From: Dictyobacter arantiisoli
GTDB taxonomy: Bacteria; Chloroflexota; Ktedonobacteria; Ktedonobacterales; Ktedonobacteraceae
Assembly: GCF_008326305.1 (NCBI RefSeq)
Contig: NZ_BIXY01000010.1
Location: 1 to 51,136 of the forward strand
Direction: 5' to 3'
Length of the DNA stretch: 51,136 nt
Shown: in pieces, positions 1,984-38,890 of the stretch
How the letters are laid out: each line of letters opens with the position of its first letter
How positions within the stretch are numbered: the first letter of the stretch is position 1
The notes under the pieces: generated by a model
The model's input: the letters and a program-made list of their open reading frames with translations, nothing else
Databases searched by the model: none
Told to the model about the DNA's origin: nothing
Translations under genes and position numbers: made by a program

Positions 1984-2017
1984 AAGACACGTCTCCCCAT
2001 AACATCTGGAAACTGGG

Positions 2018-2147
2018 GCTCGCTTGTAAGCTGACGCACACGAGCCTGCAACCGTTTTTAGTATGTCTTGCAGAAAAAAGTTCTGTGGAATTTTTTCTGC
2101 AAGACATACTAAAAACATTTTTAAGCACCTCAGGTGCAAAAACTCAT
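2018..2147 (-). repeat. Dispersed palindromic element, copy 1
   Basis: Read on the minus strand, the element has three parts. The head (2147-2116) begins ATGAGTTTTTGCACCTGAGG. The central palindrome has 25-bp arms at 2055-2079 and 2091-2115, perfectly complementary, with an 11-base loop. The GC-rich tail (2054-2018) contains CAGGCTCGTGTGCGTCAGC and AGCGAGC. The same head-palindrome-tail order occurs at 5092-5219 and 38679-38890. The first bases of the head (aTGAG) supply the stop codon of the hydrolase gene. The hairpin could also terminate transcription from both sides, since it is flanked by A and T runs. Confidence 0.8.
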
Positions 2148-2983
2148 ACGCGAAGATCACGAAGGCCATGGGGATCTGGCACAATTGTCCAATGTTCATC
2201 ATCTGGACTATGAGCTTTGCCTTCGCGTGCTAGTTTGAGGAGATGGGCTTTGACAGATTGTGCAGCCATAACATGCAAGCGAGGATCGATATCGGTGTAG
2301 ATTTGCTGCACAATTGAGGAAAGATCATCTCCCTGGGGATGTGCCTGTAGGACGGCGATGATTTGTTGCTCACGTTGCTGACGGTGTTCGATATAGGTCC
2401 GCAGGCGCTGCTGAGGATCAGTGATGATGGGGCCGTGCGCGGGGACGATTTCTTTGATGGGTAATTGCTGGAAGCGCCGCAGCGAGTCAAGATAGTCCAG
2501 CATGTCTCCTTCGGGCGGTATGATGACGACAGTGCCACTGCCAGCAAGCAGGTCACCAGCAAAGAGGATGTGGCGTTGCTCAAGCCAGAAGCTGAGATGA
2601 TCAAAACGATGGCCGGGCGTATGGATGGCGCGTAATTGGTCATTTCCGGCTGGAAAGATCGTGCCATCAGCGATCTCTCTGTCAGCGCAAGGGACTCCCT
2701 GTCGGCTAAAGGCAGAGATAGGCACAGCTAGCCTTTGTCGTAACTCCTCGGCACCGCCCAGATGATCAGGATGTCCATGCGTGATGAGGATATGCCGGAT
2801 ACCCCCACGTTGCTCGCCGGCGCGTATAATCGCAGCCAGATGCTCCTCTTGCTCATCCCCTGGATCAATTACTAGTGCCCCCGCTTCACCACCTCCCAGG
2901 ACGATCGTGTTGGTGCCTGCGCCAGTCATTATCGAGGCATTGGGTGCCAGAATGAATGTATAAGCTGTTCCATTTTCAGACAT
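2144..2983 (-). CDS. Metallo-beta-lactamase-fold hydrolase (LACTB2/glyoxalase II-like)
   Basis: This 279-residue protein has the complete metal site of the MBL fold. HGHPDH sits at residues 69-74 (H69, H71, D73, H74), then H125 in HTPGH, D144 in FAGDLL and H183 in PAHGP. Residues after about 215 look like a small winged-helix tail, the arrangement seen in LACTB2-type hydrolases and endoribonucleases. The start at 2983 (MSENGTAYTF) was chosen because AGAAGGAG lies 7 bases upstream. An upstream in-frame ATG at 3025 has no such site. The stop codon lies inside the head of the palindromic repeat, so the last residues (about RDLRV) may have been altered by the insertion. The substrate is unknown, with thioesters, nucleic acid and small esters all possible. 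Confidence 0.85.
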   Translation of the reverse strand: MSENGTAYTFILAPNASIMTGAGTNTIVLGGGEAGALVIDPGDEQEEHLAAIIRAGEQRGGIRHILITHGHPDHLGGAEELRQRLAVPISAFSRQGVPCADREIADGTIFPAGNDQLRAIHTPGHRFDHLSFWLEQRHILFAGDLLAGSGTVVIIPPEGDMLDYLDSLRRFQQLPIKEIVPAHGPIITDPQQRLRTYIEHRQQREQQIIAVLQAHPQGDDLSSIVQQIYTDIDPRLHVMAAQSVKAHLLKLAREGKAHSPDDEHWTIVPDPHGLRDLRV

Positions 2984-3439
2984 ATCTTTACTCCTTCTGA
3001 ATGAGCAATCGAGTTCTTGCATCAAATCTCATACGACTTATGCCGATTCTTCTGGCAAGACAAAATTGGATCGTCTGACCATAAAAATCTCAAATCCAGC
3101 GGCGCTATCCCATAACAACATCACCGCCGCCGAGGGCCGGGGCTGCACCAACATCCTTAAACCTTCTGCCTATCCCTCTCTGCTTTACGGCAGAGAGATA
3201 TCCACAAAAACGCTTCACACACCTGTATATTACAATAGCTAACAATTTACAGGAGTGCCAGGAAATACCAATCCCTCTTCTCTCTCCCCTGCCACAGGCG
3301 GTATAAAAAAGATATGGAAAGCTCTGAAGCTACCACCGTTTCTGTGTTACAAAGAAATGTTTTCTGTTATAATTTGGAAGAAATATTAGTCGGGCGAATA
3401 CAAGATCGCCTTCAACATACGATAGAAATTGGTGTATTA
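2984..3439. other. Divergent intergenic region, MBL hydrolase / aroE
   Basis: About 450 bases without a supported gene. It holds a small perfect hairpin (arms CTCTCTGC at 3176-3183 and GCAGAGAG at 3190-3197, no T run) and the aroE promoter listed separately. A GC-rich stretch at 3121-3150 shows no coding features. Confidence 0.4.
3346..3373 (+). promoter_or_regulatory. Predicted sigma-A promoter of aroE
   Basis: GTTACA at 3346-3351 and TATAAT at 3368-3373 are separated by 16 bases. The -10 box is a perfect match. It lies inside the longer open frame that could begin at 3314, which argues that translation starts downstream at 3440. Confidence 0.55.
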
Positions 3440-4991: not shown

Positions 4992-5040
4992 GTAAGTTGA
5001 GGGTAGAGGCACACTATGTATGCCTCTACCCTCAACTTAC
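4992..5040. terminator. Perfect 20-bp hairpin after the ACT gene
   Basis: The arms GTAAGTTGAGGGTAGAGGCA (4992-5011) and its exact complement (5021-5040) enclose a 9-base loop. It lies 55 bases after the ACT-domain stop codon. There is no T run on the plus strand, so a terminator role is plausible but not proven. It precedes palindromic element copy 2 by about 50 bases. A comparable hairpin precedes copy 3 at 38610-38669. Confidence 0.5.
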
Positions 5041-5091
5041 CTCTGTCCCTAACAAAGCGTTTGTTTCCCATGCTCTCGACGGTCTCTGTGC

Positions 5092-5219
5092 ATGAGTTTT
5101 CGCACCTGCGGTGCTCAAACATCTTTTTAGTGTGTGGTGCAGGAAAGGTGCACAGCACCTTTCCTGCACCACACACTAAAAAGGGCGCAGGCGCGCACGC
5201 GCCTGTCAGCAGGTGAGCA
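5092..5219 (+). repeat. Dispersed palindromic element, copy 2
   Basis: The head (5092-5122) begins ATGAGTTTTCGCACCTGCGG. The central palindrome has arms at 5123-5151 and 5155-5183, a perfect 29-bp stem around a 3-base loop. The tail (5184-5219) contains GGCGCAGGCGCG and GCGCCTGTCAGCAGGTGAGC, which can form a second small hairpin. It shares head and tail with copies 1 and 3. The palindrome differs from theirs in sequence but is equally perfect. Confidence 0.85.
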
Positions 5220-5319
5220 GCAAGATCCCGCTGGTGATGGGAATCAAACACTTTGTAAAAAGACCGAGCCGGAATATTGTAAGATAGATGTATCGCTTTC
5301 ACAAAGGAGAGATATTCAC

Positions 5320-25971: not shown

Positions 25972-26002
25972 ATGAATTTTCGCAACTCTGACGCTCAAAA
26001 AG
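25972..26002 (+). repeat. Degenerate, solitary head of the palindromic element family
   Basis: ATGAATTTTCGCA followed by GCTCAAAAA aligns without gaps to the 31-base head of copy 2, with about 23 of 31 positions identical. No palindrome or tail follows, so it may be a decayed or headed fragment. It lies 116 bases from the solitary arm of the foldback element family. Confidence 0.4.
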
Positions 26003-26117
26003 GTTGTTATGTAGCGCAAAGAGAGTAGGCGCATCAGCACCGGTATACAAGCGAGCAATAAGATTACTATAGACAAAACAACTACTGTTTTATGGTAAAT
26101 ATCGCTATGCTGGAGCG

Positions 26118-28423: not shown

Positions 28424-28474
28424 TAGAAAAGGAAAACGCGTCCTTAATTGTTAAGGACGCGTTTTCCTTTTCTA
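28424..28474. terminator. Perfect 24-bp bidirectional terminator
   Basis: Arms 28424-28447 and 28451-28474 are exactly complementary around a 3-base loop (core AACGCGTCCTTAA). AAAAGG on the left and CCTTTT on the right provide T runs for both strands. It separates the convergent PhnD-like and kinase genes. Confidence 0.88.
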
Positions 28475-37301: not shown

Positions 37302-37317
37302 TCCCATCGAGATTATA

Positions 37318-37437
37318 CTGATTGCCCGCAGGCAGGAGCGTCAGCGCCTGCCTGCGGGCAATCAGTCCTTCCGGGTGTCTATGAGGGTGAAAGCGGGATG
37401 CAGGGTCTGCATCCCGCTTTCACCCTCATAGACACCC
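37318..37437. repeat. Doublet of long perfect hairpins between convergent genes
   Basis: Hairpin 1 has 19-bp arms at 37318-37336 and 37347-37365 with a 10-base loop. Hairpin 2 has 31-bp arms at 37373-37403 and 37407-37437 with a 3-base loop. Both are exactly complementary. They fill the gap between the histidine kinase and HAD genes and end one base before the HAD stop codon. Hairpin 1 (GCGCCTGCCTGCGGGC) resembles the tail of palindromic element copy 3 (GCGCCTGCTTGCGAGC). A bidirectional terminator role is possible. Confidence 0.75.
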
Positions 37438-37438
37438 T

Positions 37439-38410
37439 CTAGAACTCTTCTAGAGCCGTCAGAAAGCCCGGTAGAGACTCAACGCTGTGGACAAGTACAT
37501 CCGCACCGCGCTGGCGGTAGATATCGATCTCATCCTCTTTTACCACCATGGCAGCTACAAATATTGGCTCATCCGCGCTTTTGGTAGCTTTATAGCGACG
37601 CACCAGATCCAGATCATCCGCAGTATCCCCAATATAGAGTCCCCCCTGTGCTCCAACCCGGGCAATCGCGTAGCGGAGCGCCTGGGGATCAGGCTTGGTG
37701 TAGAGGGTTGATGACACAACGACATCCCACCAACGACCACCACAATATTTCTCCAGGCGCTCCAGGGCACTATCTACCTCAGGTCCGACGCGCCCGGTGA
37801 TCATCCCCAGGCGCGTGATACCCGCCTGTTGCAGATCTGAGAAGAAATCCGGCTCGAATAACATCTTCTCATTATGGACAAAACCGGTAGCGTCAGGAAG
37901 ATAGCGTGGCTCACGACCAAAGCGCCGCTGCAACTCCTCCACGCCCCAATAGCTCTCATTAAAAATATTCACAATCGTCTCATAATCCGTGCAGGCACTG
38001 GCGGGAAACGTTGCTTCAACCCAGGGCCGACCACCTTGTCCCTGTTCGGCAGCCTCATGTGCCAGTGCTCCCCATTCAACGGTACTGCGTTGAGCCAGCG
38101 AAGTGCCGCGCCATTCGCGCAAACGAGCGGTCTCCAGGGTGCTCAACAAATAACACATATCCCAATCATTATTGAAGCCGCCCGCTTGCTTAAAAATCCC
38201 AATATCCTCTAACGTGACCAGCTGGGCGCGTTCATTCTGACGCCACTCTAACTGATTCAATGTGCCAACTATATATTCAGTTACAGCAATATTTGCCGCA
38301 CGAAACGATTTGCTAGTTTCAATCAAAACGCCATCCACATCAAAAAAAATGGTATCAAATGGATGAGGTAATGAGAGGTCTGGGTGTTGCCAGATTACTG
38401 GACTACGCAT
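37439..38410 (-). CDS. HAD-superfamily hydrolase (family IA-like)
   Basis: This 323-residue phosphatase-like protein has motif I FFDVDGVLIETS, motif II MITGRVG, a motif III lysine in TKPDPQALRYAI, and motif IV YIGDTADDLDLVRR. A long insertion between motifs I and II (about 160 residues) forms a large cap with FNNDWDMCYLL and NESYWGVEELQRRFG. Such caps occur in a poorly studied subfamily linked in places to amino acid biosynthesis. The substrate is unknown. The ATG at 38410 is preferred to 38440, with AAAGG 12 bases upstream. The stop lies beside the hairpin doublet. Confidence 0.85.
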   Translation of the reverse strand: MRSPVIWQHPDLSLPHPFDTIFFDVDGVLIETSKSFRAANIAVTEYIVGTLNQLEWRQNERAQLVTLEDIGIFKQAGGFNNDWDMCYLLSTLETARLREWRGTSLAQRSTVEWGALAHEAAEQGQGGRPWVEATFPASACTDYETIVNIFNESYWGVEELQRRFGREPRYLPDATGFVHNEKMLFEPDFFSDLQQAGITRLGMITGRVGPEVDSALERLEKYCGGRWWDVVVSSTLYTKPDPQALRYAIARVGAQGGLYIGDTADDLDLVRRYKATKSADEPIFVAAMVVKEDEIDIYRQRGADVLVHSVESLPGFLTALEEF

Positions 38411-38609
38411 AAATAGAAAGTGCCTTTCAAAAGCATACAATAATAATCACAAAAGAACAGCTAATTGTTCCTCTGCTATTGTATATCAAAAGCACGCCAT
38501 CTGGAGATCTGAGGGGAGGGGGGAGCGCCAAACATTCGCCAGCTTTTGGGGAACCGCAAATGAAGCCCCCCTCTTACCTACACGTTTAGTACAGACCCAG
38601 AGGAGACCT

Positions 38610-38669
38610 CATATACCCTTTTTATATCTGGCGCAGATAATTTTGCGCCAGATATAAAAAGGGTATATG
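38610..38669. repeat. Perfect 26-bp hairpin preceding element copy 3
   Basis: Arms 38610-38635 and 38644-38669 are exact complements around an 8-base loop. The left arm begins CATATACCCTTTTTATATCT. It sits 9 bases before the head of palindromic element copy 3, just as a perfect hairpin (4992-5040) precedes copy 2. Confidence 0.7.
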
Positions 38670-38678
38670 AGTTTTTTT

Positions 38679-38890
38679 ATGAGTTTTCGCACGCGAGGTG
38701 CTCAAGATATTTTTGTTATGTGGTGCAGACAAGGTGCTGCGCACCTTGTCTGCACCACATAACAAAAAATAATAATAAGGGGCAAAAATAAAAAATAGGT
38801 GCAAGTGCGGGGGGGAAGTGCGCGAGGGAATTAGGATGCGGGGGGGTGAGGAAAAAAGGCGCAGGCGCGTGAGCGCCTGCTTGCGAGCGG
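38679..38890 (+). repeat. Dispersed palindromic element, copy 3 (with inner insertion)
   Basis: The head (38679-38709) begins ATGAGTTTTCGCACGCGAGG. The palindrome has perfect 28-bp arms at 38710-38737 and 38741-38768 with a 3-base loop. An extra A/G-rich stretch (38769-38857) not seen in copies 1 and 2 follows. The tail GGCGCAGGCGCGTGAGCGCC then TGCTTGCGAGCGG runs to 38890. It lies between the HAD gene and the amino acid transporter genes. Confidence 0.8.

Follow-up and report, generated by a model that had tools for sequence, protein, structure and literature searches.

A Dictyobacter family of miniature mobile elements (MITEs) whose near-perfect palindromes are probably kept matched by replication template switching

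A gene-less repeat unit of about 203 bp, multicopy and dispersed in the genome of the soil bacterium Dictyobacter arantiisoli, represents a real, new, and lineage-specific MITE family of Dictyobacter (Ktedonobacteraceae). In this genus, the elements show terminal inverted repeats (TIRs), a 3-bp TNA duplication at CTNAG, tandems that share one duplicated site, and an intergenic placement. The combination of TIRs, TNA duplication, and intergenic copies marks the family as a non-autonomous DNA transposon (MITE). Taken jointly, the data are best explained, with good though not full confidence, by an element that is moved in trans by a DDE transposase and whose palindrome arms are kept matched by template switching during replication. 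The papers searched, all from outside subscription journals, contain no description of this family.

The analysis started from a stretch of 51,136 nucleotides (the window; Table 1). The sequence-only reading had described three copies here, each with a head, a palindrome, and a tail, and all three are present where it placed them. These parts are real, but the unit they were taken to form is merely the inside of the larger, ~203-bp element with outer inverted repeats, which were missed because the window has just one well-preserved copy. Copies 1, 2, and 3 score 113, 156, and 94 bits against a covariance model of the family (E values of 5e-31 to 1e-43), and copy 2 folded as DNA yields a z-score of -11.3. 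Copy 3 has lost its left inverted repeat and has ~87 bp between palindrome and tail. The head of copy 1 provides the stop codon TGA (window positions 2144-2147) of a minus-strand gene at 2144-3025, while the stop codon TAA (1981-1983) of a plus-strand gene ending at 1983 adjoins the other end, so that copy 1 fills the gap between two convergent genes. The window also contains other long, near-perfect intergenic palindromes that are unrelated to the MITE in sequence (28424-28474, 4992-5040, 38595-38684, and 37317-37446). Some of these are terminator-like, and 37313-37462 is a weak match to the covariance model.

Table 1. Copies of the element in the window and their parts
Feature	Position	Strand	Basis or remark
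Copy 1, older full-length element, approximate ends	1984-2190	-	Model match and sequence reading
Copy 1, core	2011-2147	-	
Copy 1, palindrome	2054-2116	-	Perfect arms of 26 bp, 2054-2079 and 2091-2116
Copy 2, best-preserved full element	5053-5255	+	203 bp between target duplications; covariance model, flank alignment
Target duplication TAA, left of copy 2	5050-5052	.	Flank table
Target duplication TAA, right of copy 2	5256-5258	.	Flank table
Copy 2, left TIR	5053-5069	+	CAAAGCGTTTGTTTCCC
Copy 2, right TIR	5239-5255	-	Reverse complement CAAAGTGTTTGATTCCC
Copy 2, head	5092-5118	+	ATGAGTTTTCGCACCTGCGGTGCTCAA
Copy 2, short hairpin within head	5102-5114	+	GCACC-TGC-GGTGC
Copy 2, central perfect palindrome	5123-5183	.	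Arms of 29 bp, 5123-5151 and 5155-5183; 3-nt loop
Copy 2, tail hairpin	5188-5205	+	CAGGCGCGCACGCGCCTG, then T5 on the minus strand (terminator-like)
Copy 3, decayed	38679-38890	+	Head and palindrome 38679-38768, tail 38856-38890; perfect arms of 28 bp, 38710-38737 and 38741-38768
Copy 4, decayed, without palindrome	25972-26063	+	Found by covariance model

The ends of the element were defined by aligning the flanks of its copies. A unit consists, in order, of the left repeat, ~20 bp, the head with its short hairpin, the near-perfect central palindrome of ~61 bp, a GC-rich tail hairpin, ~30 bp, and the right repeat. The outer TIRs mostly belong to either a CAAAGTGTTTGATTCCC or a GAGAGTGTCAGCCTCCC type, some elements combining the two; these patterns match the genome 210 and 101 times, compared to 4 and 3 times for reversed control patterns. 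Paired ends have a modal spacing of 205 bp as first measured, equivalent to 203 bp without the duplicated bases. The flanking triplets are identical in 39 of 58 elements (mean of 8.8 and maximum of 18 in 5,000 shuffles), and the variable middle base alone is identical in 44 of 58 (shuffled, 16.5; maximum, 28). The base adjoining the element is the same left and right in 44 of the 58 complete copies. The duplicated triplet is TNA, sometimes TNT. Outside it, a C is found on the left in 36/58 and a G on the right in 35/58, which defines the target as CTNAG. Neighboring tandem copies have a single shared target site between them. A second palindromic repeat of 97 bp (GCTCGACTTTGTAC...GTACAAAGTCGAGC) uses the same CTNAG target and is often nested beside the first element, for example at G000:C25:22224-22320 (L023), C14:57866-57962 (L034), and C3:1652-1748 (L055), G000 being this genome.

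Queried by BLAST with the core of copy 2 (128 bp), the whole genome gave 92 matches, about half of which are the palindrome read on the opposite strand. The covariance model, built from 38 diverse copies including copy 1, gave at least 150 matches, all of those listed with E < 1e-25. With dozens of copies by BLAST and at least 150 by covariance model, the family is wider than the three window loci. The whole-genome profile search proposed in the sequence-only reading thus bore out its suggestion of a dispersed, mostly intergenic mobile family: none of 128 sampled copies lies inside a gene predicted by a simple codon-based gene caller. It did not yield the Y1 transposase partner envisaged there, as the sole Y1 gene (on contig C50) lacks the element ends. 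On contig C1, whose 320 kb were read irrespective of the repeat, we counted 26 distinct sites in total, ~17 of them strong, from which we extrapolate to perhaps 300 to 600 copies in 7.2 Mb. Many contigs (e.g., C4, C85, C108, C135, C150, and C174) end within an element, ~100 bp from a terminal repeat; the assembly was therefore probably interrupted by the palindromes, leaving the copy number underestimated. In codirectional gaps, the elements show no orientation bias toward the neighboring genes (30 versus 33). Convergent gaps account for ~8% of the intergenic length yet contain 26 of 107 classified copies; divergent gaps are underrepresented. These counts come from a sample biased toward repeat-bearing loci and from gaps that the insertion itself lengthens. 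The convergent excess fits insertion being tolerated at gene ends.

Judging by its TNA duplication and inverted repeats, the MITE is probably moved by a DDE transposase that works in trans. TNA duplications and GAG-type ends are typical of the IS1031 group of the IS5 family, and since the element shows both, an IS1031-like transposase is our best guess. A three-base target has been documented for this group (PMC2516522). Four PF13340 and 17 PF01609 loci were checked for an IS5-type transposase, and none of them bears these ends. Likewise, in the part of the genome that was read, sampled IS630, Y1, IS5-type, and DDE_Tnp_1 loci and paired ends up to 3.5 kb apart included no autonomous parent, a partner that MITEs commonly have but do not need. 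An IS630 parent was rejected, as the IS630 loci lack the element ends and the flank table gives a duplication of TNA, not the TA first suspected. Another candidate, from a Dictyobacter relative (L205), is a 1.7-kb pair of outer repeats holding a 466-amino-acid IS4-like transposase. This gene carries inner repeats of its own (TATGAGTCATCCCGAATTTT). In the D. arantiisoli genome, an insertion sequence related to it lies inside a palindrome at C23:81001 and occurs separately where C3 begins; the L205 gene is therefore most likely a passenger insertion sequence within the palindrome. IS4-like insertion sequences inside the element palindrome are seen in two species (L205:1330-2910 and G000:C23 from ~81045 [L041]), which suggests that the palindromes attract them. 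Plasmids, phages, and viral contigs gave no match to the family.

The behavior of the central palindrome was analyzed in a 0.92-Mb sample, where 108 copies have stems of 18 bp or longer. Although these hairpins have 84 distinct left arms, only 25 mismatches occur in 2,999 base pairs between the arms (8 G-T, 5 A-C, and 12 other), versus the 21.2% mismatch that random assignment of arms to copies would give. Covariation scores 0.401, compared to 0.128 for shuffled and 0.050 to 0.085 for slid controls, and 29 of 34 pairs have changed on both sides. G-T pairs are not in excess, based on 13 transition-type mismatches. The 3-nt loops occur in both orientations (GAA/TTC, 21/12; ACA/TGT, 14/7; ATA/TAT, 11/7). 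In contrast, the outer repeats, which lie ~165 bp apart and have a between-copy diversity similar to that of the arms, are non-complementary at 19.6% of sites and form a perfect pair in 3 of 54 cases. Complementarity therefore depends on the closeness of the arms and not on a likely transposase-binding role, and the contrast between near-perfect arms and poorly matched outer repeats points to arm copying rather than selection on RNA. Two elements (G000:C33:42776-42910 [L020] and C4:56245-56364 [L057]) carry the tail, copied in reverse, in place of their head side, which gives a new palindrome, e.g., GCTCACCTGCTGGCAGGCGCCTGCCAGCAGGTGAGC. Such elements possibly capture the birth of palindromes through the same arm copying.

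This pattern points to template switching between the arms. In the proposed scheme, a hairpin extruded from the central palindrome at the replication fork would let the polymerase take one arm as the template for the other. A new mutation in one arm would then be either erased or copied onto both, sometimes with inversion of the loop, and each copy would over time acquire a new, still perfect palindrome. Palindromes also disappear through deletions between short direct repeats, and insertion sequences strike them. Hairpin formation during replication would explain the dependence on closeness, the lack of visible G-T tolerance, the inverted loops, the paired transversions at fixed sites, and the direct-repeat deletions. 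In yeast, polymerase template switching at inverted repeats leaves a signature of arm homogenization and spacer inversion (PMC8604942), and in RNA genes template switching can both generate stems and restore them (PMC8794818).

Comparison with related genomes extends these observations to orthologous sites. Among four other Dictyobacter genomes, three have at least 51 model matches each (at least 55 in two of them) and the fourth has 2. In another genus of the Ktedonobacteraceae, g8, about 100 matches were found in each of three genomes and one in a fourth, while the other Ktedonobacteraceae genera sampled gave no covariance-model match. The head is recognizable in g8 (TTTTCGC[AG]CCTNCGG[TC]GCTCA), and the palindromes, wholly different in sequence from those of Dictyobacter, are still near-perfect. 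At orthologous g8 sites with flanks ~93 to 97% identical (L150/L175, L167/L181/L168, L149/L151, L182/L184, L177/L193/L204, L141/L198, and L200/L201), differences in the palindrome are present on both arms, transversions included, and between L150 and L175 the loop is also inverted (AGA versus TCT). Between L166 and L190, the palindrome has been cleanly deleted between direct repeats AAAAAAAT, and several further relatives show partial deletions. At L171 and L165, relatives have another palindrome at the same spot. No clean empty site was recovered; in g8, the search turned up just other palindromes and partial deletions.

The Dictyobacter species have visible outer repeats. The g8 copies have head, palindrome, and tail but no recognizable outer repeats, and the MITE reading is established for Dictyobacter only. 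The core common to both genera, present in g8 at ~100 or more copies per genome, could be an entity of its own, older than the outer repeats, in which fresh perfect palindromes arise or are swapped while head and tail persist, and which possibly serves the cell or moves by another route. We regard this as a minor possibility.

The main rival to arm copying is selection on hundreds of dispersed copies, with the long hairpin acting as a functional RNA or DNA structure (a bidirectional terminator, mRNA stabilizer, or cruciform signal) whose pairing is maintained copy by copy. The recurrence of head and palindrome in two genera, the excess in convergent gaps with few copies in divergent ones, the T5 3' of the tail hairpin on the minus strand, and the different palindromes at L171 and L165 would agree with such a function. 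However, the elements show no orientation preference in codirectional gaps, several copies sit between divergent genes, no T-tract follows the palindrome, and palindromes have been deleted in close relatives. The missing G-T excess also speaks against it, with few events behind it. In addition, no Rfam family matches the window at gathering score, and ten related loci gave just sub-threshold, chance matches to microRNA hairpins. Selection on a functional hairpin is thereby weakened relative to arm copying, and we consider it unlikely.

The variety of palindromes might also not be made in place, each type having spread as a subfamily by transposition, with new perfect palindromes as rare accidents. 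Some arm types are common to many copies (e.g., ATTATGTGATGTAGAAAAGGTTC), so subfamilies do exist, and between L139 and L200/L201 in g8 the head is retained but the palindrome is different throughout. Against this, the 108 hairpins have 84 distinct arms, and sister species show compensated differences at one and the same orthologous site, which makes subfamily spread improbable as the source of the variety. To our knowledge, Y1/RAYT elements make no target duplication or terminal inverted repeats. A REP/REPIN-like element moved as single-stranded DNA by a Y1 (RAYT/IS200-type) transposase, the kinship suggested by the sequence-only reading, would match the high copy number, the intergenic, hairpin-rich, and often tandem copies, and the one Y1 gene in the genome, but the target duplication largely refutes it in Dictyobacter, and it is very improbable given the TIRs, a Y1 gene with the wrong ends and no head nearby, and stems of ~29 bp, as opposed to 5 to 13 bp in GTAG REPs, where G-T pairing is often seen (PMC3733652).

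With arm copying as the preferred explanation, the palindrome behavior is the part of this MITE family that deserves attention, as an unusual MITE variant and a natural experiment in palindrome evolution. A single genome offers hundreds of replicate palindromes, and each element has inverted repeats at several distances, making the rate and rules of template switching measurable from sequence alone. The family also carries a warning: perfect covariation is commonly read as proving that an RNA is functional, yet it can come about with no selection acting on an RNA.

RUP, Correia elements, and Nezha are bacterial MITEs derived from insertion sequences, and they duplicate TA. The family resembles them (PMC10969869) in being small, gene-less, intergenic, and present in many copies, with TIRs, a short duplication, and a parent that acts in trans or is lost. 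It differs in its TNA duplication at CTNAG and its core of head, 61-bp palindrome, and tail; the searched text of that review mentions neither Chloroflexota nor arm homogenization. With the IS1031 group of IS5, it has the 3-bp TNA duplication in common, a likeness of target and end type alone. Like REP/REPIN sequences with their RAYTs, the elements are abundant intergenic hairpins that occur in clusters and attract insertion sequences. Unlike these, they have a long perfect stem, inverted-repeat ends, and a target duplication, G-T pairs are rare, none of the units read showed a short stem with a GTAG tag, and there is no Y1 partner. Quasipalindromes that mutate by template switching (PMC8604942, PMC8794818) share the arm homogenization, spacer inversion, and multi-base paired changes; in contrast to the known cases, the palindromes described here belong to a dispersed mobile family, number in the hundreds per genome, and have in their outer repeats a built-in control for distance.
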